A stretch of DNA of 64,000 bases, taken from Sphingomonadales bacterium. GTDB taxonomy: Bacteria > Pseudomonadota > Alphaproteobacteria > Sphingomonadales > Sphingomonadaceae. A program made the translations under genes and the position numbers. This document shows, in pieces, positions 32,925 to 60,925 of this stretch. Every line of letters starts with the position of its first letter. Within the stretch, counting starts at the first letter, position 1. The notes under the pieces were generated by a model. The model was given only the letters and a program-made list of their open reading frames with translations. It searched no databases and was not told the DNA's origin. The stretch lies in assembly GCA_014763545.1 (NCBI GenBank), contig JACXVD010000027.1, forward strand, positions 1 to 64,000, in the 5' to 3' direction.

Positions 32925-34451
32925 TCAACTGCCCGCCAGCAGGTGTTCCTTCGCGATCTTGTCCTTCCAATGGGCAGGCGCGAGCGTGTGGACATTGTTC
33001 CCGCGGCTATCCACCGCCACCGTCACCGGCATGTCCTTGACGGTGAATTCGTAGATCGCCTCCATGCCCAGGTCCTCGAAGCCGACGACCCGCGATTCCT
33101 TGATCGCGCGGGCGACGAGATAGGCCGCACCGCCGGTCGCCATCAGATACGCGACCTTGAAGCGGCTGATGACCTCCACCGCATTGGCGCCGCGTTCGGC
33201 CTTGCCGATCATGGCGAGCAGGCCGAGGTCGAGCATCATTTCGGTGAACTTGTCCATCCGCGTGGCGGTGGTCGGGCCGGCCGGGCCGACCACCTCACCC
33301 ATTACCGGATCGACCGGGCCGACATAATAGATCGCCCGCCCGCGGAAATCGACCGGCAGCTCCTCGCCCTTCGCCAGCATGTCCTGGATCCGCTTGTGCG
33401 CCGCATCGCGCCCGGTGAGCATCTTGCCCGACAGCAGCAGCCGGTCGCCATTTTCCCAGCTGGCGACTTCTTCGGGCGTCAGATTGTCGAGATCGACCTT
33501 CTTCGCCTGTGCATCCGGCTGCCAGTGGACATCGGGCCACTGGTCGAGATCGGGTGCCGGGATGTAGCTGGGCCCCGAGCCGTCGAGGGTGAAATGCGCG
33601 TGGCGGGTGGCGGCGCAATTGGGGATCATCGCCACCGGCTTGCCCGCGGCATGGCAGGGCCAGTCGAGAATCTTGACGTCGAGCACGGTGGACAGCCCGC
33701 CCAGCCCCTGCGCACCGACGCCCTGGGCATTGACCTTGTCGTAAATCTCGATGCGCAGCTTCTCGATATCGTTCTGCGGCCCGCGCGCCTTCAGCTGGGC
33801 CATGTCGATCGGTTCCATCAGGCTCTGCTTGGCGAGCTTGACGCAATGTTCCGCCGTGCCGCCGATGCCGATGCCCAGCATGCCCGGCGGGCACCAGCCC
33901 GCACCCATCGAGGGAATCTGTTCGATCACCCAGTCGACGATATTGTCCGACGGGTTCATCATCTTGAACTTGCTCTTGTTTTCGCTGCCGCCGCCCTTGG
34001 CCGCGACGTCGATCGAAACGGTGCGGCCGGGGACCATGGTGACCGACAGGACGCAGGGCGTGTTGTCCCTGGTGTTGCGGCGGGTGAAGGCGGGGTCGGC
34101 CAGGATCGAGGCGCGCAGCTTGTTTTCCGGCAGATTATAGGCGCGCCGCACGCCTTCATCGACCACATCCTGCAGCGAGCGTTGCGATTCGAGCCGGCAT
34201 TCCTGGCCCCATTCGACGAACACGTTGACGATGCCCGTATCCTGGCAGATCGGCCGGTGGCCTTCGGCGCACATCCGGCTGTTGGTGAGGATCTGCGCGA
34301 TGGCATCCTTCGCCGCCGGGCCCTGTTCCGCCTTGTAGGCTTCGCCCAGCGCCAGGATGTAATCCATCGGATGATAATAGGAGATGTACTGGAGCGCATC
34401 GGCGACGCTCTCGATCAGGTCTTCCTCGCGGATTGTCACCATGTCGCTCAT
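32925..34451 (-). CDS. Class I fumarate hydratase (4Fe-4S)
   Basis: The 508-residue enzyme interconverts fumarate and malate in the citric acid cycle. It has both class I halves: HRPICQDTGIVNVFVEWG, GWCPPGMLGIGIGGTAEHC and IPNCAATRHAHF, which supply the [4Fe-4S] cysteines, and, in the C-terminal half, SGKMLTGRDAAHKRI, PVDFRGRAIYYVGPVDP and AGPTTATRMDKFTEMML. The start at 34451 (MSDMVTIREED) fits the family; a longer open frame upstream is not expected. It depends on an Fe-S cluster and thus on SUF, which is damaged in this sequence. Confidence 0.94.
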   Translation of the reverse strand: MSDMVTIREEDLIESVADALQYISYYHPMDYILALGEAYKAEQGPAAKDAIAQILTNSRMCAEGHRPICQDTGIVNVFVEWGQECRLESQRSLQDVVDEGVRRAYNLPENKLRASILADPAFTRRNTRDNTPCVLSVTMVPGRTVSIDVAAKGGGSENKSKFKMMNPSDNIVDWVIEQIPSMGAGWCPPGMLGIGIGGTAEHCVKLAKQSLMEPIDMAQLKARGPQNDIEKLRIEIYDKVNAQGVGAQGLGGLSTVLDVKILDWPCHAAGKPVAMIPNCAATRHAHFTLDGSGPSYIPAPDLDQWPDVHWQPDAQAKKVDLDNLTPEEVASWENGDRLLLSGKMLTGRDAAHKRIQDMLAKGEELPVDFRGRAIYYVGPVDPVMGEVVGPAGPTTATRMDKFTEMMLDLGLLAMIGKAERGANAVEVISRFKVAYLMATGGAAYLVARAIKESRVVGFEDLGMEAIYEFTVKDMPVTVAVDSRGNNVHTLAPAHWKDKIAKEHLLAGS

Positions 34452-34604
34452 CGAAGCTGTGTTCCTTCCTGTCGATTCCCCGTCGCTCCATAGGCGCGGG
34501 GTAGCCAACGCGTCAAAGCGCTTGGCGTGCCGCACGCTTCCGCCTAAAGCCGAGGCCGTTGACGATGCGTGTTGTTTGAGTAATACAGTAGTTCGGAAAC
34601 CCCT

Positions 34605-35234
34605 ATGACCCTGACCGAAACCTCCTCCGCATCGCAAGGCATGGCGCCTGAGTTCACCCCCGATTTCGGGATCGCGCGCAAGGCGATGATCGACAGCCAG
34701 CTGCGCACCAGCGGCGTCAACGAACCCTTCGTGCTGGCACGCATGGGCGCAGTCCCGCGCGAGGATTTCGTGCCCCCCGCCGCCCGCGCCGCCGCCTATA
34801 TGGACCGCGCGGTCGCCCTGGGTGACGGTCGGTTCCTCGCTGCCCCGCTGGTGCAGGGCCGGATGCTGGCCGAAGCCGCCCCGCGCGCCGACGATGTGGC
34901 GCTGGTGGTCGATGGCGGCAGCGGCTACCTCGCCGAACTGCTCCTTCCGATGGTCGGCAAGCTGGAGGTGACGACACCTGCAGACGCACTGGCCAAGGGC
35001 AGCGACGGCGGATTTTCGCTGCTCGTGATCGATGGCGCGATCGAGGCATTGCCCGATACGCTCGCCAACCAGCTGGAAGAAGGCGGGCGCGTGGTGACCG
35101 GGCTGGTCCAGCGCGGCGTGACCCGGCTGGCCGCAGGCCGCAAGATCGGCGGCGAAGTTGCCCTGCTGCCGCTCGCCGAAATCGGCATGCCCCGGCTGGC
35201 CGAATTCGACCTACCCAAGGGCTGGAGCTTCTGA
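34605..35234 (+). CDS. PCMT-like SAM methyltransferase homologue
   Basis: The 209-residue protein resembles protein-L-isoaspartate O-methyltransferase: MIDSQLRTSGVNEPFVLARMGAVPREDFVP at the N-terminus, RFLAAPLVQGRML, a SAM-site-like VVDGGSGYLAELL and LLVIDGAIEALPDTLANQLEEGGRVVTGL. The middle is shorter than in classic PCMT, and the motif for isoaspartyl substrate binding is diverged, so activity is uncertain. Such proteins sit before tolC in related genomes. A TTGACG and TAATAC pair about 45 bases upstream may form the promoter. Confidence 0.8.
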   Translation: MTLTETSSASQGMAPEFTPDFGIARKAMIDSQLRTSGVNEPFVLARMGAVPREDFVPPAARAAAYMDRAVALGDGRFLAAPLVQGRMLAEAAPRADDVALVVDGGSGYLAELLLPMVGKLEVTTPADALAKGSDGGFSLLVIDGAIEALPDTLANQLEEGGRVVTGLVQRGVTRLAAGRKIGGEVALLPLAEIGMPRLAEFDLPKGWSF

Positions 35235-35236
35235 GC

Positions 35237-36715
35237 ATGACGCCACGTATTCTCGTGGGCGTGCTGCTGGGCGGCGCGGCCCTGCTTGCTGTGCCGGCGC
35301 AGGCGGACACGCTGCGCGATGCGCTGGTCGAAGCCTACAAGACCAACCCGACGCTGCAGGCCGCCCGGGCACAACAGCGCGCGACCGACGAGACGGTGCC
35401 GATCCAGAAAGCTTCGGGCCGTCCGAACGTGTCCGCGACGGGCCAGTATGTCGAATATGTCAAGCAGAGCTCGACAAGCTTCACGGCGCCCGAACGTGCC
35501 GTGGCCGGCCAGGTCGACCTCGGCGTGCCGGTCTATTCGGGCGGTGCGGTGAAGAATGCCATCCGCGCGGCGGAAGTACGCGTGGGTGCCGGACAGGCCG
35601 ATTTGCGCGGCACCGAAAGCGCGATCTTCAGCCAGGTCGTCGCCGCCTATATGGATGTCATCCGGGCGGAGGCCATCGTCGGGCTTTCCGCCAACCAGGT
35701 CGGCGTGCTCGAAGTCAATTTGCAGGCGACCAGCGACCGGTTTGAAATCGGCGATTTGACGCGCACCGACGTGGCCCAGTCGGAAGCGCGCCTCGCGGTC
35801 GCGCGGAGCGACTTGCGCTCTGCCCAGGCCAACCTCGTGGGCGCGCGCGAACGCTATATCGCGCTGGTCGGCAAGGCGCCGGACAATCTCCAGCCGCCCC
35901 CGCCGCTGCCCGACATGCCGGCAACGGTGGACGAGGCGCTCGCAGTCGCGCTGGACAACAACCCCGACCTGATCGCGGCGCGCGAACGGGCCCGCGCGGC
36001 CGGTTACGATATCGACGTTGCCGGGGCGGGCCGTTCGCCGAAGCTCTCGGTCTTCGCCAACAGCGCCTATTCGAATTATCTCGGCACGCTGGGCAGCGGC
36101 ACGGTCGTGGCGCCGCCGCAGGATTCAACCACCGCGCAGGCAGGTTTGCGCCTGTCGATCCCGCTGTTCCAGGGTGGGCTTCCCGCCGCGCAGCAGCGCC
36201 AGGCGCAGGCCCGCGCGGCAGCCTTGCTCGAGCAGGAAATCGGCGCCGAGCGCGATGTAATCGTGCAGGTCCGCTCTGCCTGGTCGAGCTGGAAAGCGGC
36301 CAATGCCATCGTCGTGTCGAGCCAGCAGGCGGTCGAAGCCGCGCAGCTCAGCCTCGAAGGCGTGCGCGCGGAAAACACCGTCGGCAACCGCACCATCCTC
36401 GACATCCTCAATGCCGAGCAGGAATTGCTCTCCGCCCAGGTGACGCTGGTGACCGCGCGGCGCGACGCCTATGTCGCCGGATTCACGCTGCTGGCCGCCA
36501 TGGGACGCGCCGAAGCGCGCGATCTGGGGCTGGAGGACGAGGGCCTGCTGTACGACCCGCAGGTCAATTACGATCGGGTCGACGGCAAGTGGAACGACTG
36601 GTCGCGCGACCCCGATCCGGTCGCCCAATCGACGAGAACAATTGACATTCCCGCCGCCGACGCGGAAATTCCCGCTGCTTCGCCAAGTGATTCACCCACT
36701 GGCGGATCGAATTAG
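35237..36715 (+). CDS. tolC: TolC-family outer membrane channel
   Basis: The 492-residue outer membrane factor has a signal peptide (RILVGVLLGGAALLAVPAQA), two OEP repeats (TLRDALVEAYKTNPTLQAARAQQRATDE... and TVDEALAVALDNNPDLIAARERARAAGYD) and the usual AANAIVVSSQQAVEAAQLSLEGVRAENTVGNRTILDILNAEQELLSAQ segment. It would form the trimeric exit duct of type I secretion or drug efflux pumps. It begins two bases after the PCMT-like stop and is followed by a PopZ-like gene, a gene order frequent in alphaproteobacteria. Confidence 0.93.
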   Translation: MTPRILVGVLLGGAALLAVPAQADTLRDALVEAYKTNPTLQAARAQQRATDETVPIQKASGRPNVSATGQYVEYVKQSSTSFTAPERAVAGQVDLGVPVYSGGAVKNAIRAAEVRVGAGQADLRGTESAIFSQVVAAYMDVIRAEAIVGLSANQVGVLEVNLQATSDRFEIGDLTRTDVAQSEARLAVARSDLRSAQANLVGARERYIALVGKAPDNLQPPPPLPDMPATVDEALAVALDNNPDLIAARERARAAGYDIDVAGAGRSPKLSVFANSAYSNYLGTLGSGTVVAPPQDSTTAQAGLRLSIPLFQGGLPAAQQRQAQARAAALLEQEIGAERDVIVQVRSAWSSWKAANAIVVSSQQAVEAAQLSLEGVRAENTVGNRTILDILNAEQELLSAQVTLVTARRDAYVAGFTLLAAMGRAEARDLGLEDEGLLYDPQVNYDRVDGKWNDWSRDPDPVAQSTRTIDIPAADAEIPAASPSDSPTGGSN

Positions 36716-36758
36716 GCGTAATTTCGGCGTAGCTCGCCAGTAACGGGGACCGGGGGCA

Positions 36759-37241
36759 ATGGCACAACAGGGCGAAGCATCGGTCGAGGAAATCCTCGAA
36801 TCGATCAAGAAGGTGATCGCGCGCGACAATCGCGCCGGTGCCATCGAAGAACGCCGCCGCCGCGCCAGCGAAGGGCTGCGCGACCGCGAAATCGACGAGT
36901 TCGAAGCCGAGGAAGTGCTCGACCTCGGTGCGGCCGCCTTCGTGTCCGAAGCGCCGCTGGACGCGGATCTGGATGGGGATGCCGACGAAGGCGAGGAATC
37001 GGCCCCGCTGACCAGCGAGACCGCGCGCGCATCGATGCGCGACAACCTCGCCGCGCTCGCCATGCTCGCCGAACCGGGTGTGCCGCCGCAGATCGTGCGC
37101 TCGGGCGAGACTTCGCTCGAAGGGCTGGTGCGCGAAATGCTGCGCCCGATGCTGTCCGACTGGCTCGACAAGAACCTGCCCGGCATGGTCGAAAAGCTGG
37201 TGCGCGACGAAATCGCGCGGATCGCACACAAACGGGGCTGA
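36759..37241 (+). CDS. PopZ-like DUF2497 protein
   Basis: The 160-residue protein has the DUF2497/PopZ ends: an N-terminal EASVEEILESIKKVIARDN helix and a C-terminal EGLVREMLRPMLSDWLDKNLPGMVEKLVRDEIARI oligomerisation helix bundle. An acidic, disordered-looking middle (residues 40-95) joins them. In Caulobacter PopZ gathers at cell poles and tethers the ParB-parS centromere. A parAB-parS system lies 20 kb away in this window, so a polar anchoring role is a reasonable inference. Confidence 0.85.
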   Translation: MAQQGEASVEEILESIKKVIARDNRAGAIEERRRRASEGLRDREIDEFEAEEVLDLGAAAFVSEAPLDADLDGDADEGEESAPLTSETARASMRDNLAALAMLAEPGVPPQIVRSGETSLEGLVREMLRPMLSDWLDKNLPGMVEKLVRDEIARIAHKRG

Positions 37242-37344
37242 ACGGCCCCCAGGCGGGACACAACCTGCGCAACGCGCCGCCCGCCGAGCGGATAATAACA
37301 CGCGCAACTTGATTGCCCGGCGCGAGCGGCTAATCCTTGCCGCC

Positions 37345-39537
37345 ATGTTGAAGCACATCGGGTACGCAACCCTCGCCGCCATGCTGGCCAGCGCCAGCCC
37401 CGCCCTCGCCGCGCCGGACGCAGAGGGCAGCGCCGCTCCCGCCGACGAACGCGCGCCGATGAGCCCGCAAGATCTCGTCACCCTGCCGCGCCTCGGCGGG
37501 GCGACCGCGACCAAGGATGGGCGGCTCGCCGTCTGGACGGTCACCGTGACCGACCCCGCCAGCTACGCGCGCAGCACGCAGGTGTGGCTGCGCGATCTGG
37601 CCCGGCGCGATGCCGTGCCGGTGCAGCTCGACCTTGGTGGCAGTGCATCCAGCCCGGCCTTCGGCGACGATGGCTGGCTCTATTTCCTGTCCGACCGCAA
37701 GCCGGCGGATGCGGACAAGGACGCGGCGGCGACGAGCCAGGTGTGGCGCGTGAAGCCGGACGCAGAGGGCAAGGTTTCGGCGATCGAGCAGGTCACCGCC
37801 CTGCCCGCCGATGTCGACGGGTTCATCGTGTCGCCCGGCGCAGCGAAAATCCTCGTGTTCGGGGCGATGCCGCGCAGCTGCACCAGCTATGGCTGCACCG
37901 CGCCCGCCGCCCACCTGCCCGGGCCGGGCACCGGCCGCCTCTACCGCGCGGAAGACGGCTTCGTGCGCCATTGGGACAAATGGGAGACGCCGGGCAGCTA
38001 CAGCCGCGCCTTCGCCTTTGCACTGGTCGGCGGCAAGGCCAGCGGCGATGGCGTCGCGCTCGACGGACCGGACGGCGCCGGGGCGCTGGTCGGCGATACG
38101 CCCACCCAGCCCTTCGGCGGCAATGAGGATCTCGCATGGGCGCCGGATGCCTCGGGCGTCTATTTCGTCGCCCGCCGCGCCGATGCGGAAGAGCCGATGT
38201 CGACCAATCTCGACATCTGGTGGAACGATCTGTCGGGCAAGGCCCCGACCAACCTGACCGCCGCGAACCAGGCGACCGACGCGCTGCCCGCGCCCTCGCC
38301 CGACGGCAAGTGGCTCGCCTGGGCGGCGATGGCGCGGCCGGGTTACGAATCCGACCGGATGGTGATCCACCTGCGCAATGTCGCGACCGGCGAGACGCGC
38401 GAGCTGACCGGCGCGTTCGACCGCAGCTTCGGCTCGCTCGCCTGGACCCCCGATTCGCGCTGGATCATCGGCACCGCGGGCGATGTGCTCGACGTGCCCG
38501 TGTTCCGCGTCGATCCGAAAAGCGGCGCGGTGCAGAAGCTCGACCTGATGGCCGGCAACGAAGCGCATATCGGCAATGTCGTGCCGCTGCCGGGCAACGG
38601 CCTGCTGTTCACCCGCGATTCGATCGGCGCGCCGGCGGAACTCTATCTCTCGCGCGGCTGGGAGCAGGCGCGCCCGCTGAGCGATGCCGCCATGTCGATC
38701 CTCGGCACGCGCGCGTCCATCGTCACCCGCCGGTTCAGCTTCATCGGCGCCGATGGCGACACGGTGTGGGGCCAGATCACCCGGCTGGAAGGGCAGAAGG
38801 GCCCCATCCCCGCGATCCTCTACGTCCATGGCGGCCCGCAGGGCAGCTTCAACGATGGCTGGTCGAGCCGCTGGAACCCGCGCGTGGTGGCCAGTCAGGG
38901 TTTCGCGGTGATCTCGGTCGATTTCCACGGCAGCACCGGTTACGGCCAGGCCTTCACCGATTCGATCAACAAGGACTGGGGCGGCAAGCCGCTGGAAGAC
39001 CTCCAGCTCGGCCTCGCCGCCGCGCTCAAACTCGACAGCCAGATCGACGGCGCCAATGCCTGCGCCATGGGCGCCAGCTATGGCGGCTACATGATGAACT
39101 GGATCGCGGGCAAATGGCCCGACCGGTTCAAATGCCTCGTGCAGCACGATGGCGTGTTCGATGCCCGCGCGATGGGCTACGAAACCGAGGAATTGTGGTT
39201 CGACACCTGGGAACACGGCGGAAACACCTATTTCCAGGCGCCCGAGGAATATGAACGCTGGAATCCGGTGAACCATGTCGACCAGTGGAAGACGCCGATG
39301 CTGGTGATCACCAGCGAAAAGGACTTCCGCATCCCCTATACCCAGGGAATCGCCGCCTTCACGGCACTGCAAATGCGCAAGGTGCCGGCCGAGCTGCTGG
39401 TCTTCCCCGATGAGAACCACTGGGTGCTCAAGCCGAAGAATTCGCTGCAATGGCACCAGACCGTGTTCGGCTGGCTGCATCGCTGGCTGGGCGGCGCCGA
39501 GGCGGAAAACGCCAAGCCGGAAGATGGGGGCCAATGA
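37345..39537 (+). CDS. S9-family (prolyl oligopeptidase-type) peptidase
   Basis: The 730-residue exported peptidase has a signal peptide ([23 protein letters not shown]), an N-terminal beta-propeller (about residues 40-450) and a C-terminal alpha/beta-hydrolase domain. The catalytic triad is Ser578 in GASYGGYM, Asp660 in [12 protein letters not shown] and His692 in ENHWVLKP. This resembles dipeptidyl-peptidase or acylaminoacyl-peptidase members of S9C, acting in the periplasm on short peptides. The ATG at 37345 is chosen because it opens the signal peptide. Its TGA overlaps the next ATG (ATGA). Confidence 0.92.
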
Positions 39538-47231: not shown

Positions 47232-47809
47232 GCGGGCAGCTCCCCCAATTCGCGCAATGCGCCGAGCACCTGGAGGAGCGGCATCCCGAGCACGGTGAAC
47301 TGGTCGCCCTCGATCGCCTCGAACAGCAGCGGCCCGCGCGCCTCGATGCGGAACACGCCCACGCAATGGCCCACTTCGGGCCATTCGGCGTCGAGATAAT
47401 CGGCGATGAAGCCATCCGACAGCTGCCGCACATGCAGCCGGGCCAGCGCCGCGCCCGACCAGACGATGCCACCTGCGCGCTGCAGCGCCGCGGCAGAGTG
47501 AAGCTCCATCGCCTTGCCGGAGAAGAACCGCAGATGGGCCGCCGCTTCGGCGCGGTCGGCAGGCTTGTCGAACCGGCGCCCGTCGACGACGACCAGCGAA
47601 TCGCTGCCCAGCACGATGTCACCCACCGCTTCGACGGCGAGCGCCTTCGCCTCGGCCAGCGCGCGCGCGATCTCGGCGGGGGGCGCGTCGCCCAGCGCAG
47701 ATTCGAGCGCGCGTTCGTCGATCCCCGCCGGTTCGCAGCGATAGGGGACGCCCACGGCATCGAGCATGGCGCGGCGCGAGGCGCTCTTGGAGGCGAGGAC
47801 CAGGCTCAT
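47228..47809 (-). CDS. maf: Maf-type nucleotide pyrophosphatase
   Basis: The 193-residue Maf protein begins [23 protein letters not shown], with the SASRR phosphate-binding loop, and has [36 protein letters not shown] and the [17 protein letters not shown]-like segment ([29 protein letters not shown]). Maf enzymes hydrolyse modified or canonical NTPs. It overlaps ppsR by four bases and aroE by four bases. Confidence 0.93.
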
Positions 47810-48651
47810 ATCGGCTTGGGTCCCACCACCGGCGGGACATCGCGTTTCTCGCGGTCGTTCATCAGCTTCAGCACCGCAGCCGCCGTTTCCTCGATCGAGC
47901 GGCGGGTTACGTCGATCACCGGCCAACCGTTGTCGGCGAACATGCGCCGGGCGAAGGCAAGCTCGGCCTTGACCCGGTCATTGTCGACATAGGCGGTTTC
48001 GGTCGCCTCGTTGAGGCTGAGCAGGCGATTGCGCCGCACCTGCACCAGCCGTTCGGGCGCGGTGGTCAGCCCCACCACCAATGGGCGGCGCAAGCTGAAC
48101 AGGACCGGCGGCGGCGGGCTTTCGACCACCAATGGAATATTGGCGACCTTGTAACCGCGATTGGCGAGATAGATGCTGGTCGGCGTCTTCGACGTGCGCG
48201 ACACCCCGGCGAGCACGATATCGGCCGCTTCCCAGTTTTCCCAGCCAACCCCGTCGTCATGCGCGATCGTGTACTGGATCGCCTCGACCCGATCGAAATA
48301 GGCTTCGTCCATCGAATGCTGCCGCCCCGGCCGCCCGCGCGCCTGCTGGCCCAGTTGTGCCTCGAGCGCGGCGGTCACTTCGTCGAGCACCGCGACAGCG
48401 GGCAGCGCCAGGGTGCGGACATGTTCTTCCAGCCGCTTGCGTGTATCGGCATTGACCAGCGTATAGAGCACCAGACCGGGGTTTCCGGCGATTTCCTCCA
48501 TGATCCGGTCGAGATGCTGTTGCGAGCGGACCATGGGCCAGAAATGCCGTATCACGTCGGCATTCTCGAACTGGGCGAGCGCCGCCTTGGCGATCATCTC
48601 CAGCGTCTCGCCGGTCGAATCCGACAGGAGGTGGAGGTGGATGCGGCTCAT
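47806..48651 (-). CDS. ppsR: PEP synthase/PPDK regulatory protein (kinase/pyrophosphorylase)
   Basis: The 281-residue DUF299-family protein regulates pyruvate phosphate dikinase or PEP synthase by phosphorylation and phosphorolysis of a threonine. It has HLHLLSDSTGETLEMIAKAALAQF, DIVLAGVSRTSKTPTSIYLANRGYKVANIPLV (P-loop-like nucleotide site) and VGLTTAPERLVQVRRNRL. The start is ATG at 48651. This gene borders the putative origin on the left, opposite hemE, as in other alphaproteobacteria. Confidence 0.93.
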   Translation of the reverse strand: MSRIHLHLLSDSTGETLEMIAKAALAQFENADVIRHFWPMVRSQQHLDRIMEEIAGNPGLVLYTLVNADTRKRLEEHVRTLALPAVAVLDEVTAALEAQLGQQARGRPGRQHSMDEAYFDRVEAIQYTIAHDDGVGWENWEAADIVLAGVSRTSKTPTSIYLANRGYKVANIPLVVESPPPPVLFSLRRPLVVGLTTAPERLVQVRRNRLLSLNEATETAYVDNDRVKAELAFARRMFADNGWPVIDVTRRSIEETAAAVLKLMNDREKRDVPPVVGPKPI

Positions 48652-48978
48652 GGGCGCGGGAATGCCTTTCGCTCGGGCTGTGGACAACCCAAGGCATAAA
48701 CCACGGGAGGGAAGGGCGGACAAGTTCGGGAGAGGATTGTCTCCCCATTACCCGCCCGCAACCTGCCCGCTTGTGGACAGGCAGACCCGGTTTTCGACAG
48801 GCTGGGGATAGCGTGGACAAGCTTCGTTTGACGCACCGGCTGCGCGAGTCGCGTGCGGCATTCGCCCTGTTCATGCCGGGAGAAATCGGGCAGAGGCGCG
48901 CTGTCCCCGATATCCACAGGGCCAACAGACTCCATCATCTCTATTAAATTACTTTATTTATTGGATAGGACCCCTTCG
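48652..48978. other. Putative chromosomal replication origin between ppsR and hemE
   Basis: This 327-base gap contains DnaA-box-like 9-mers: TGTGGACAA (48679-48687), TGTGGACAG (48772-48780), CGTGGACAA (48812-48820), the related TGGGGATAG (48803-48811), and ATATCCACA (48910-48918), which matches the consensus in 8 of 9. A 28-base AT-rich run (about 48937-48964), in an otherwise GC-rich genome, would suit a DNA-unwinding element. Genes diverge from it (left run leftward, hemE onward mostly rightward), and parAB with parS sites lie 8-12 kb away. In Caulobacter the origin also lies beside hemE. No experiment supports it here. Confidence 0.65.
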
Positions 48979-50004
48979 ATGCCCGGCCTCCTGCTCGATA
49001 CGCTGAACGGCAAGCGCGCCGACAAGGTGCCCATGTGGCTCATGCGCCAGGCGGGGCGCTACCTGCCCGAATATCGCGAACTACGGGCACAGAAGGGTGG
49101 CTTCCTCGAACTGGCCTATGACAGCGAGGCCGCGGCCGAGGTCACGCTGCAGCCCATCCGGCGCTTCGGCTTCGACGGGGCGATCCTCTTTTCCGACATC
49201 CTGGTGATCCCGCATGCGATGGGGCAGGATCTGTGGTTCGAGGCGGGCGAAGGGCCGCGCCTTGCGCCCAGGCTGCTCGATGCCGCCTGGCAGGCCCTGC
49301 AACCGGCCGTGGAGCGCCTGGAGCCGGTGTATGAGACGGTTCGCCGCTGCCGGGCTGCCCTGGGGCCTGAAACGACCATGCTGGGCTTTGCCGGCTCTCC
49401 CTGGACCGTGGCGACCTATATGGTGGCCGGGCAAGGGTCGAAGGATCATGCCGAGACGCGCGGGCTTGCCTATCGCGATCCGGCTGCCTTTGCGTCGCTA
49501 ATCGCCGCGATCGAGGAAGCGACCGCGGATTATCTGATCGGCCAGATCGATGCGGGCGTGGAAGCGGTGCAATTGTTCGACAGCTGGGCGGGCAGCCTCG
49601 CGCCCGACGAATTCGAACGCTGGGTAATCGCACCCAATGCGCGGCTGGCGGCGAAACTGCATGAGGCGAGGCCGGGAATCCCGGTGATCGGCTTTCCCAA
49701 GGGAGCGGGGGCCAAGCTGCCCGCCTATGCCCGCGAAACCGGGGTCGATGCGGTGGGCGTGGACGAAACGGTCGATCCGGCCTGGGCCGACCGCGAATTG
49801 CCCGCCGGCCTGCCGGTGCAGGGCAATCTCGACCCGCTGTTGCTGCTGGCGGGCGGCGACCGGCTGGTCGAGCGGACCGGGTTCATCCTGCGCGCCTTCG
49901 CCGGACGGCCGCATGTGTTCAACCTCGGCCACGGGATCGGCCAGCACACGCCGATCGAACATGTCGAGGCGCTGGTTGCCTGCGTGCGCGGCTGGCAGGG
50001 ATGA
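48979..50004 (+). CDS. hemE: Uroporphyrinogen decarboxylase
   Basis: The 341-residue enzyme makes coproporphyrinogen III in heme synthesis. It has VPMWLMRQAGRYLPEYRELRAQKGGFLEL (active-site arginines), GAILFSDILVIPHAMG, MLGFAGSPWTVATYMVAGQGSKDH and HVFNLGHGIGQHTPIEHVEALV. ATG at 48979 follows GGATAGGA. An in-frame start at 48853 would lie inside the putative origin and lacks family residues. The AT-rich element at 48937-48964 sits just before it and may also hold its promoter. Confidence 0.96.
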   Translation: MPGLLLDTLNGKRADKVPMWLMRQAGRYLPEYRELRAQKGGFLELAYDSEAAAEVTLQPIRRFGFDGAILFSDILVIPHAMGQDLWFEAGEGPRLAPRLLDAAWQALQPAVERLEPVYETVRRCRAALGPETTMLGFAGSPWTVATYMVAGQGSKDHAETRGLAYRDPAAFASLIAAIEEATADYLIGQIDAGVEAVQLFDSWAGSLAPDEFERWVIAPNARLAAKLHEARPGIPVIGFPKGAGAKLPAYARETGVDAVGVDETVDPAWADRELPAGLPVQGNLDPLLLLAGGDRLVERTGFILRAFAGRPHVFNLGHGIGQHTPIEHVEALVACVRGWQG

Positions 50005-50670: not shown

Positions 50671-51669
50671 ATGCACCTGAAAGAACTCAAGAAGAAAACC
50701 CCCGCCGAACTGGTCGAGATGGCCGAGGAGCTGGGCGTCGAAGGCGCGAGCACGATGCGCCGGCAGGATTTGATGTTCTGCATCCTGCGCGAACTCGCCG
50801 AAGACGAGGAATATAACGAAAAGATCATGGGCGTCGGCACCATCGAGGTGCTGCAGGACGGTTTCGGCTTCCTGCGCAGCCCGGAGGCGAACTACCTCGC
50901 CGGGCCCGACGACATCTATGTTTCGCCCAACCAGGTTCGCAAATGGGGCCTGCGGACCGGCGATACGGTGGAAGGCGAAATCCGCGCGCCCAAGGATGGC
51001 GAACGCTATTTCGCGCTGACCAGCCTGACGAGCGTCAATTTCGACGATCCCGACAGCGTCCGCCACCGGACCAATTTCGACAATCTCACCCCGCTCTATC
51101 CCGACGAACGGCTGGTGCTCGATTCGAGCGATCCCACGGTCAAGGACAAGAGCGCGCGGGTGATCGACCTGATCAGCCCGCAGGGCAAGGGCCAGCGCGC
51201 GCTGATCGTCGCCCCGCCGCGCACCGGCAAGACCGTGCTGCTGCAGAACATCGCCAAGGCGATCACCGACAACCATCCGGAAGTCTTCCTGATCGTGCTG
51301 CTGGTCGACGAGCGGCCCGAAGAAGTCACCGACATGCAGCGCAGCGTGAATGGCGAGGTCATTTCCTCGACCTTCGACGAACCGGCCAACCGCCACGTGC
51401 AAGTGGCCGAAATGGTGATCGAGAAGGCCAAGCGGCTCGTCGAGCACAAGAAGGACGTGGTGATCCTGCTCGATTCGATCACCCGCCTCGGCCGCGCCTA
51501 CAACACCGTCGTGCCGAGCTCGGGCAAGGTGCTGACCGGCGGTGTCGATGCCAACGCGCTGCAGCGGCCCAAGCGCTTCTTCGGCGCGGCCCGCAATATC
51601 GAGGAAGGCGGATCGCTCTCGATCATCGCCACCGCGCTGATCGACACCGGCAGCCGCATGGACGAGGTG
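50671..51669 (+). pseudogene. rho: Transcription terminator Rho lacking its C-terminal ~86 residues
   Basis: Rho is a hexameric RNA helicase that ends transcription. Residues 1-333 are normal: a cold-shock-like RNA-binding domain ([17 protein letters not shown]), Walker [10 protein letters not shown] (181-189), the [12 protein letters not shown] region, and [19 protein letters not shown]. The family then continues with the R-loop (KGTGN) and the arginine finger (SGTRKEE), but here the sequence passes in frame into an unrelated ATPase. About 86 codons are missing by comparison with E. coli Rho, so ATP hydrolysis should fail. Junction bases are GACGAGGTG followed by TCGCCC. Real lesion or assembly error is undecided. 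Confidence 0.88.
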
Positions 51670-52206
51670 TCGCCCGCATTGCCCCGGCACGCGGTTCTCA
51701 CCGGTGCGCCGGGGGCGGGCAAGTCCACCCTGCTCCAGGCTGCGGCCCATGCGGGCCTTGCCACCTCGCCCGAAATTGCCCGCCAGATCCTGCGTGACGA
51801 GGGCGGGATGGCGCTGCGCGAGGGCGACCCGCTGGCCTTTGCCGAGGCAATGCTGGAAGGTCATCTGCGCGAATTCGAGCGGGCGCGGGCAGGCGCCGGC
51901 CCGGTGGTGTTCGATCGCGGTTTCGCCGATGTCGTGGGCTTTCTCGACGTATCGGGGCTCTCGGTCCCCGGATCGGTCGACCGCGCCTGCCGCGAGGTGC
52001 GTTATGCCGGTCCGATCCTGCGCGCCCCTGCGTGGCAGGCAATCTACGCGCAGGATGACCAGCGCATCCAGGACTGGGACGAGGCCGTCGCCAGCGACGA
52101 GGCGGTCACCGCGGCCTGGCGGCGCTATGGCTACGACCCGGTCGACCTGCCCTTCGCCCCGGTCGCCGAGCGTCTCGCCTTCCTGCGCGACCGGCTGGGG
52201 CTATGA
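51667..52206 (+). CDS. P-loop AAA-type ATPase/kinase-like protein
   Basis: Starting from the GTG at 51667, the 179-residue protein reads [30 protein letters not shown], with a Walker A at residues 13-20 (GAPGAGKS). It continues [22 protein letters not shown], then [30 protein letters not shown] and the C-terminal [20 protein letters not shown], typical of the AAA_28-type small ATPase/kinase-like proteins. Substrate unknown. It is now fused in frame behind the truncated Rho; the GTG is inferred from the family N-terminus and may not be the natural start. Its end abuts the convergent NTF2-like gene. Confidence 0.78.
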
Positions 52207-56587: not shown

Positions 56588-56603
56588 TGTTCCACGTGGA
56601 ACA
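56588..56603. promoter_or_regulatory. parS-like site 1
   Basis: TGTTCCACGTGGAACA, a perfect 16-bp palindrome between mnmE and mnmG, differs from the universal parS by the central T/A pair only. It is one of five such sites. Confidence 0.9.
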
Positions 56604-58543: not shown

Positions 58544-59181
58544 TCGCGACCGAGCAGGAGGCCCGGCAGTTCGTCGCCGAGCTATGCGACGCCGGGGCGA
58601 TGGAGCGCCTGGAAGTATTCGTGGCCGCCTTGCGGGAGGAGAACGAACGGCAGAATCTCGTCGCCGCGGCCACGCTCGATATCGCCTGGCAGCGGCACAT
58701 TGCCGATAGTGCGCAATTGCTGGCGCATGTTCCACGTGAAACAGCAGGGCCCTGGCTCGACCTCGGGACGGGGGCAGGGCTGCCTGGGCTGGTCATCGCC
58801 GCCATGCGACCGGATATGCCCGTCAAGCTGGTTGAATCGCGCAAGCGCCGGGTGGAATGGCTCGAAACGATACGAATGCGGTTGAAGCTGCCGCATTGCG
58901 AGGTGATCGGCAGTCGGCTCGAGCTGGTGGAGAGCTTCCCGGCCAGTGTCATTTCGGCACGCGCCTTTGCGCCATTGCCGCGCCTGCTCGACTTGTCCGC
59001 ACGTTTCTCCACAAGCGACACCCTCTGGCTGTTGCCCAAAGGGCGCTCGGCAGCGCAGGAATTGTCCGAATTGCCGAATCGCATGCGCGGCATGTTCCAC
59101 GTGGAACATTCGCAAACCGACGCCGAAGCCGGTATCATCGTCGGCAGGCTGGCTACCAAGGCCGCGAAAGGGAAAGCATGA
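58540..59181 (+). CDS. rsmG: 16S rRNA G527 methyltransferase RsmG
   Basis: RsmG (GidB) methylates guanosine 527 of 16S rRNA with SAM. The 213-residue protein has [23 protein letters not shown], the SAM motif [39 protein letters not shown] and [18 protein letters not shown]. Two parS-like sites fall inside it, encoding VPRET and MFHVEH, so part of its sequence serves DNA segregation. It overlaps mnmG by ATGA and parA by four bases. Confidence 0.95.
58728..58743. promoter_or_regulatory. parS-like site 4, inside rsmG
   Basis: TGTTCCACGTGAAACA within rsmG, encoding VPRET in frame; 15 of 16 bases fit the parS consensus. Confidence 0.9.
59093..59108. promoter_or_regulatory. parS-like site 5, inside rsmG
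   Basis: TGTTCCACGTGGAACA near the 3' end of rsmG, encoding MFHVEH in frame; a perfect palindrome identical to site 1, about 70 bases before parA. Confidence 0.9.
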
Positions 59182-59954
59182 TCCGTATCGCTATCGCGAA
59201 CCAGAAGGGCGGGGTGGGCAAGACGACCACCGCGATCAACATCGCGACTGCCATGGCCGCAACGGGCTGGAAGACGCTGCTGATCGACCTCGATCCACAG
59301 GGTAACGCCTCCACCGGGATGGGAATCGGCAACGATGCGCGCGAATCCTCCAGCTACGATCTGCTGGTGAACGGCGCGACGCTGGCGGAATGCGTGCAGC
59401 CGACGGAAATCCCCGGGCTGGATATCATCCCGGCCACGCAGGATCTCAGCGGGGCGGAGGTCGAGCTCGTTTCGGTCGAGGATCGCACCGACCGCCTGCG
59501 CGCGGCTCTGGCGGGCCATACGGGGCACGATATCTGCTTCATCGACTGCCCGCCCTCGCTTGGCCTGCTGACGCTGAACGCGCTGGGCGCTGCCGACACG
59601 CTGCTGGTGCCGCTGCAGTGCGAATTCTTCGCGCTGGAGGGGCTCAGCCAGCTGCTGCAGACGGTCGAACGGGTTCAGCAGCGCTTCAACCCCGATCTGG
59701 GCATCGTCGGTATCGTTCTGACCATGTTCGACCGGCGCAACCGGCTGACCGACCAGGTGGCCGACGATGTGCGCGATTGCCTGGGCAATCTGGTGTTCGA
59801 ATCGGTGATTCCCCGCAATGTCCGGCTGTCCGAGGCGCCCAGCCACGGGATGCCGGCGTTGGTCTACGATCATCAATGCCCCGGCAGCCGCGCCTATATT
59901 GCGCTGGCCCGCGAATTGATCGCCCGCCTGCCCGAGAAGAGGAAAGCCGCATGA
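59178..59954 (+). CDS. parA: Chromosome partitioning ATPase ParA
   Basis: The 258-residue ParA starts [27 protein letters not shown] with the deviant Walker A KGGVGKTT at residues 10-17. It has LLIDLDPQGNASTGMGI, ICFIDCPPSLGLLTLNALGAAD and VLTMFDRRNRLTDQV. It moves the ParB-parS complex of the origin region to the poles. It lies between rsmG and parB with four-base overlaps on both sides. Confidence 0.97.
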   Translation: MIRIAIANQKGGVGKTTTAINIATAMAATGWKTLLIDLDPQGNASTGMGIGNDARESSSYDLLVNGATLAECVQPTEIPGLDIIPATQDLSGAEVELVSVEDRTDRLRAALAGHTGHDICFIDCPPSLGLLTLNALGAADTLLVPLQCEFFALEGLSQLLQTVERVQQRFNPDLGIVGIVLTMFDRRNRLTDQVADDVRDCLGNLVFESVIPRNVRLSEAPSHGMPALVYDHQCPGSRAYIALARELIARLPEKRKAA

Positions 59955-60925
59955 GCGAGACCACCGACCCGATTCGCTTCTCGGTCCCCACGCGGCCTCA
60001 TGCGGACAAGAAGAAGAAGCTCGGCAAGGGGCTGGGGGCATTGCTCGGCGAGACGCGCCGTGAAGAACCGCTGGTGCGCCAGGATCCGGCAGAGGATGGC
60101 GAGCGTGCCGCGCCGCGCGTGGCCGAAGCGCCGCGAGGGGGGCTGGCCCAGCTCGCCGTCGCCGCGATCGAGCCGCTGCCCGGCCAGCCGCGTACGCATT
60201 TCGACGAGGATGCACTGGCTGAACTCGCCGCATCGATCGCCCAACGCGGGGTGATCCAGCCGGTCATCGTGCGCCCGCTGGCGGGCGGGCGCTACCAGCT
60301 GGTCGCCGGCGAACGGCGCTGGCGAGCGGCGCAGAAGGCACAACTGCATGAAATCCCTGCACTTGTCCGCGAACTGGACGAGCGCGAGGTGATGGCGCTG
60401 GCGCTGATCGAGAACATCCAGCGCGAAGATCTCAACCCGATCGAAGAGGCGCGGGCCTATCACCGCCTCGCCGAAGACGAAGAGCTGACCCAGGCGGAAA
60501 TCGCCAAGATGGTCGACAAATCGCGCAGTCACGTCGCCAATCTGCAGCGATTGCTGACCCTGCCCGAAGACGTCGTCGCGATGGTCGAGCGCGGAACGCT
60601 CACCATGGGCCACGCGCGCGCGCTGATCGGTAATGACAATGCCTCCGAACTCGCCCGGCGGGCGGCCGCGCAGAAACTCTCGGTTCGTGAAGTCGAGAAA
60701 CTCGTCCGCACCGGAGACAAACCGCGTCGAGAGCCGCGCACCGCGCGCAGCCCCGCGAACGATTCGGACATTGCCGCGGTGCAAGCGCATCTCGAGGAGT
60801 TTCTCGGCCTGCAGGTGCGTATTCGCGCCGATGCCGACCCGCGCTCGGGCGAGGTGACGATTCGCTACCGCACGCTCGACCAGCTCGACCTGATCTGCCA
60901 GCGACTAACCGGCGGAGACATCTAA
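59951..60925 (+). CDS. parB: Centromere-binding protein ParB
   Basis: The 324-residue ParB has a basic N-terminal segment (DKKKKLGKGLGALLGE, typical of the ParA-contact region), the CTP-binding core (IEPLPGQPRTHFDEDALAELAASIAQRGVIQPVIVRPL, YQLVAGERRWRAAQ, LIENIQREDLNPIEEARAY), the helix-turn-helix LTQAEIAKMVDKSRSHVANLQRLLTL that reads parS, and a C-terminal dimer domain. The five parS-like sites at 56.6-59.1 kb are its likely loading sites. Confidence 0.97.
   Translation: MSETTDPIRFSVPTRPHADKKKKLGKGLGALLGETRREEPLVRQDPAEDGERAAPRVAEAPRGGLAQLAVAAIEPLPGQPRTHFDEDALAELAASIAQRGVIQPVIVRPLAGGRYQLVAGERRWRAAQKAQLHEIPALVRELDEREVMALALIENIQREDLNPIEEARAYHRLAEDEELTQAEIAKMVDKSRSHVANLQRLLTLPEDVVAMVERGTLTMGHARALIGNDNASELARRAAAQKLSVREVEKLVRTGDKPRREPRTARSPANDSDIAAVQAHLEEFLGLQVRIRADADPRSGEVTIRYRTLDQLDLICQRLTGGDI

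Follow-up and report, generated by a model that had tools for sequence, protein, structure and literature searches.

Cori, the chromosomal origin of Caulobacter crescentus, adjoins hemE and has parAB near it. According to PMC2217572, Cori carries five CtrA sites, with dnaA very close. Within the Sphingomonadaceae, PMC4741004 places the origin near hemE, as predicted for most members of the family in DoriC; it notes that DnaA boxes are conserved in Sphingopyxis, where a putative DUE is also present, and traces the conserved gene cluster to Brassinga et al. Because this location is already in print for the family, a hemE-side origin is a correct and ordinary instance of it, apart from a 12-mer confined mostly to this spot. 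Here, we analyse such a locus in a draft genome and, on computed evidence, hold with high confidence that the gap at 48652-48978 serves a sphingomonad as its chromosomal oriC.

The window, the whole stretch of DNA analysed, covers positions 1 to 64,000 of contig 47 in a draft of 3.07 Mb and 123 contigs; gene limits within it come from a home-made caller, and the features are collected in Table 1. Leftwards from the gap, the minus strand carries PPSR, maf, aroE, coaE and a dnaQ-type exonuclease gene; rightwards, the plus strand carries hemE (whose closest matches mark the organism as a probable sphingomonad, the best of those listed, at 89%, being a Sphingomonadaceae record), a UPF0093 gene that we take to be hemJ-like, and rho. 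The preliminary description was right to place hemE beside the gap, as the TIGR01464 match with its start at 48979 demonstrates. Its statement that the genes diverge from the gap holds from PPSR to the exonuclease gene on the minus strand and from hemE to rho on the plus strand; further right, three minus-strand genes (SnoaL-like, glutamate-synthase-like and dienelactone-hydrolase-like) interrupt the series beyond rho and precede mnmE, which is followed, likewise on the plus strand, by mnmG, rsmG, parA and parB. parAB-parS had been noted within 12 kb, and indeed perfect parS sites and parAB lie 7.6-12 kb away; parS matches with at most two mismatches number five in all, three of them perfect, against 0.06 expected. 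Several features of a DnaA-dependent oriC of the alphaproteobacterial hemE type are present, namely the divergent hemE/PPSR pair, DnaA boxes above chance, an AT-rich run by a box, and parABS near.

Table 1. Coordinates of the candidate origin and of the features around it in the window
Feature	Position	Strand	Remarks
PPSR, pyruvate phosphate dikinase/PEP synthase regulator	47806-48651	-	NF003742, over cut-off; start codon 48651
Candidate oriC, PPSR/hemE gap (327 bp)	48652-48978		Between two divergent genes
DnaA box TTGTCCACA	48679-48687	-	1 mismatch; aligned site with at most 1 mismatch in 52/76 gaps
Clade-conserved 12-mer TAAACCACGGGA	48697-48708	+	Mostly confined to the hemE gap
Weak DnaA box CTGTCCACA	48772-48780	-	2 mismatches; poorly conserved, at most 2 in 11/76
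Weak DnaA box TTTTCGACA	48791-48799	+	2 mismatches; aligned site with at most 2 in 47/76, perfect in 12
Weak DnaA box CTATCCCCA	48803-48811	-	2 mismatches; inverted to the 48791 box; at most 2 in 51/76, perfect in 12
Weak DnaA box TTGTCCACG	48812-48820	-	2 mismatches; at most 2 in 23/76
GANTC (GAGTC), CcrM-type site	48846-48850		A GANTC starts at this aligned column in 42/76
DnaA box ATATCCACA	48910-48918	+	1 mismatch; adjoins the AT-rich run; at most 2 in 39/76
GANTC (GACTC), CcrM-type site	48928-48932		Same aligned column in 24/76
AT-rich run, candidate unwinding element (DUE)	48934-48967		Richest 28-mers of the window; composition only
hemE, uroporphyrinogen decarboxylase	48979-50004	+	TIGR01464, over cut-off
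parS	56588-56603		Perfect match
parS	58728-58743		Perfect match
parS	59093-59108		Perfect match
parA	59178-59954	+	ParA-type matches, none shown over a curated cut-off; position before parB
parB	59951-60925	+	TIGR00180, over cut-off

One gene of this neighbourhood is irregular. In the window (50671-52206), rho stops at residue 333, where the reading frame passes without a break into the gene of an AAA_28 ATPase. The end of rho is reached in 66 of the 71 sequences with a rho match (the window included), four others ending at contig ends, and no second rho scores over the rho cut-off anywhere in the draft. The break stems either from faulty assembly or from a genuine deletion.

DnaA boxes were scored as 9-mers by their mismatch count to the reference TTATCCACA. 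The gap holds six with at most two mismatches, two of them with at most one, and no perfect box. Neither two boxes at the stricter threshold nor six at the looser one (shuffle mean 0.56) turned up in any of 2000 shuffles that preserved the dinucleotides of the gap; elsewhere in the window, a stretch of 350 bp has at most three boxes against the six here. The cluster reported earlier is therefore real, the count of four to five given for it being slightly low. The inverted pair at 48791 and 48803 has two mismatches in each box of the window, though each site is perfect in 12 aligned rows.

The same arrangement recurs in the order. From at least 594 relatives with a confirmed hemE (GTDB genomes), the best 80 were taken; PPSR and hemE are divergent in 75 of these loci, across gaps of 280-436 bases. 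A PPSR match is absent in the other five, one of which (L015) starts 140 bases before hemE, and these five were left out of the gap counts, so that the 76 gaps are the 75 loci plus the window. Over the 76 gaps, 172 boxes with at most one mismatch are found, whereas 20 shuffled sets give 4.25 on average and never more than 8; per gap, the figure is 2.26 against 0.037 in equal lengths of flank; 71 gaps have at least one such box and 53 at least two. Where 220-230 kb were read in two relatives (G028 and G116), one other place in each ties the gap in boxes with at most two mismatches. Two loci of the sample, those recorded as Bacillus sp. 2B10 (L077) and Microvirga sp. SRT01 (L067), are sphingomonad-like hemE-PPSR loci, and their record titles look wrong. 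A further motif, GTCAANNTGTTGGC, is present in 31 of the 76 gaps (Sphingomonas-like, among L016-L082) and absent from the gap of the window; the order perhaps has two origin layouts, these gaps showing the second.

At the level of the class, 81 of 95 genomes have a hemE match and 69 of 95 a PPSR match. Both occur in 67, a count that leaves out our own genome and, in four genomes, additional matches that were weaker or partial; the pair is divergent and less than 8 kb apart in 62 of them (less than 1 kb in 59), and in 5 the two genes are apart or on different contigs. A box with at most one mismatch is present in 37 of the 40 shortest gaps among the 58 eligible, with a mean of 2.15 per gap against 0.09 in mononucleotide shuffles.

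The AT-rich 28-base run noted earlier in the gap stands up well, since the top 28-mers of the whole 64 kb, with 24 of 28 bases A or T, start at 48934, 48935 and 48940, between the last box (48910) and hemE. This placement is common: in 70 of the 76 gaps, no more than 60 bases separate the end of the richest 28-mer from hemE. As described in PMC8287927, a BUS-type origin consists of a box, a spacer and DnaA-trios, and we applied as the criterion at least three strict trios after a box. With strict pattern scoring the longest run in the gap of the window is 2, and runs of at least three occur in 10 of the 76 gaps (13%) against 3.2% of shuffles. A strict DnaA-trio array was not seen in the window; the signal is weak, and we make no claim of one.

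GC skew was sampled in four single-contig relatives (G028, G116, G042 and G094), our own draft being in 123 contigs, with stretches of 20 kb, excluding any that lay 15 kb or less from the point under test. Split at the hemE gap, the mean skew to the left and right is -0.019 (9/9 negative) and +0.015 (8/10 positive) in G028 (one-sided p 3.5e-4), -0.011 (9/10 negative) and +0.015 (9/9 positive) in G116 (p 2.6e-4), -0.010 (11/14 negative) and +0.009 (12/15 positive) in G042 (p 4.7e-5), and -0.009 (8/14 negative) and +0.013 (12/15 positive) in G094 (p 5.7e-4), all one-sided. For G042 and G094, these p-values follow a second look, the first 10 stretches each having given an unclear skew (p 0.095 and 0.63) before 20 more each were added. 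The cumulative minimum of contiguous stretches lies 9 kb (G028) and 14 kb (G116) from the gap on the PPSR side, G116 having a near-equal minimum 65 kb from the gap. The best balanced splits fall at 320-470 kb in G028 (gap at 331), 1780-1830 kb in G116 (1789), 620 kb in G042 (510, thus 110 kb off) and 1330 kb in G094 (1306, 24 kb off). Coarse cumulative minima, each at the end of one sample (the one that starts at 750 kb in G042 and at 920 kb in G094), are about 0.39 Mb and 0.26 Mb, respectively, from hemE and fit the gap poorly. In short, the minima are close in two relatives, and the other two place them only roughly. Within the window taken by itself, the cumulative skew reaches its minimum at 34-39.5 kb and is almost as low at 16.5-17 kb; 48.6 kb is not the minimum. 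The local minima share a side, lying 9-15 kb towards PPSR (34000-39500 in the window, 340 kb in G028, 1803 kb in G116), perhaps owing to gene direction.

These data bear on three other readings of the gap. First, it could be no more than the region that holds the promoters of the divergent genes PPSR and hemE, its DnaA boxes regulating these genes and the origin being elsewhere nearby. Two divergent genes do require promoters in the gap, the 12-mer just upstream of PPSR could by eye be part of one, and the local skew minima sit on the PPSR side. Such a region, however, would not account for a box density of 6.74 per kb in the 75 hemE gaps against 0.10 in the remaining intergenic gaps of these loci, 297 in number (about 70-fold), nor for an AT-rich run adjoining hemE in nearly all gaps, nor for the differing skew across the neighbourhood in relatives; we therefore consider it very improbable.

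Second, an origin beside dnaA is a common arrangement in other bacteria. Among six single-contig relatives, three (G028, G042 and G145) have a dnaA domain starting within 0.9 kb of base 1, and the arms of G028 also differ significantly when split at dnaA (p 0.0019). In G028, however, dnaA is merely 0.33 Mb from hemE and the hemE split is the better one, and the dnaA split is not significant in G116 (p 0.22), G042 (p 0.56) or G094 (p 0.30). The distance from dnaA to hemE is 0.33-0.52 Mb in these four genomes; in our draft, dnaA is on a different contig from the hemE gap, and its locus (2.7 kb) has no box with at most one mismatch. We give an origin at dnaA almost no weight. Since dnaA is 0.33-0.53 Mb from hemE in G028, G042 and G145, base 1 of these records is not the likely origin. 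Third, clusters that titrate or reload DnaA (datA/DARS-like) occur in other bacteria, and the boxes might be one of these, near but not at the origin; such a cluster has no need for an AT-rich run, a parS neighbourhood or a class-wide divergent pair, which makes this reading scarcely credible.

An origin in the hemE gap is thus the reading that we retain, and the candidate named in the preliminary description is supported by synteny, the box cluster and the AT-rich stretch, together with conservation in the order and class and the sampled skew of the four relatives. From the layout of the sequence, we infer DnaA binding, melting, bidirectional firing and a part for ParB. DnaA would bind the inverted group of boxes (48791-48820) together with the two outer ones (48679 and 48910), and would melt the AT-rich run beside hemE. 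Two forks would then depart in opposite directions, and ParB, bound to parS 7.6-10.1 kb off, would then move the new origin.

The regulation of such an origin requires a separate consideration. With the pattern TTAA-N7-TTAA, no CtrA site with at most two mismatches is found in the gap of the window, and CtrA control as in Cori was rejected on this ground. Over the 76 gaps, the pattern occurs 8 times with at most one mismatch (4.85 in shuffles, maximum 9) and 94 times with at most two (57.6, maximum 73); the 40 class gaps have 0.43 per gap against 0.48 in shuffles. Other gaps of the order may hold weak CtrA sites.

Two further elements of the gap are conserved. The 12-mer TAAACCACGGGA is found in 24 of the 76 gaps and nowhere in 1.39 Mb of flanks. 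Across 149 genomes there are 60 copies in 58 genomes, of which 50 lie 266-297 bases upstream of hemE in one orientation and 10 elsewhere. The copy at 48697 is 46-57 bases upstream of the PPSR start. By eye, the alignment shows a GACAAG resembling a -35 element and a block resembling a -10 element, and a consensus scan found no promoter. The 12-mer may be a fixed block of the PPSR promoter, or else a protein that binds the origin may recognise it. In the literature listing, the sole match for the 12-mer concerns Parkinson's disease.

The second element is GANTC, the target of CcrM. The 76 gaps contain 345 sites, or 13.6 per kb against 2.0 in the flanks (6.7-fold) and 2.66 in other intergenic gaps, and shuffled gaps have a mean of 110 sites. 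At least two sites are present in 74 of the 76 gaps, and in 51 of the 69 loci of at least 8 kb the gap equals or beats all other windows of the same length tested; AGNCT, a palindrome of the same letters, is raised 3.5-fold. In the 40 class gaps, GANTC stands at 2.4 against 1.45. Because 774 of 2000 shuffles reach the two sites of the window's gap, which is unremarkable alone, we claim the enrichment for the order only. The genome encodes a methylase with N6_N4_Mtase and RAMA domains, the domain pair of CcrM; among 14 control genomes, only Caulobacter has a RAMA match. PMC3973325 reports GANTC in Caulobacter origins and its over-representation in intergenic DNA generally, and states that Caulobacter without ccrM retains normal initiation control. 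To the contrary, PMC2217572, a modelling paper citing others, holds that a fully methylated Cori is required. The titles and abstract beginnings listed contain nothing on GANTC at sphingomonad origins, which may still be in print. It is conceivable, though we regard it as rather unlikely, that sphingomonad origins are gated by a regulator binding TAAACCACGGGA, by the GANTC methylation state (CcrM), or by both, instead of by CtrA.

The origin of a draft genome can thus be fixed by a rule that holds in most of the order and class loci checked. The family records that start at dnaA (three of the six looked at) do not start at the likely origin. Where CtrA seems not to control replication, the gate can be sought concretely at the conserved 12-mer and in the cluster of GANTC sites.

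Compared with known systems, the locus resembles Caulobacter Cori in having hemE on one side, parAB near and DnaA as the presumed initiator. Unlike Cori, the gap of the window has no CtrA site with at most two mismatches, and dnaA lies on another contig (0.33-0.52 Mb off in the four relatives). The closer likeness is to the origins of Sphingopyxis granuli TFA and other Sphingomonadaceae as given in PMC4741004. These belong to other strains and are likened here by place and layout: they too are near hemE with a conserved gene order, and they too have DnaA boxes and a putative DUE in an intergenic gap.
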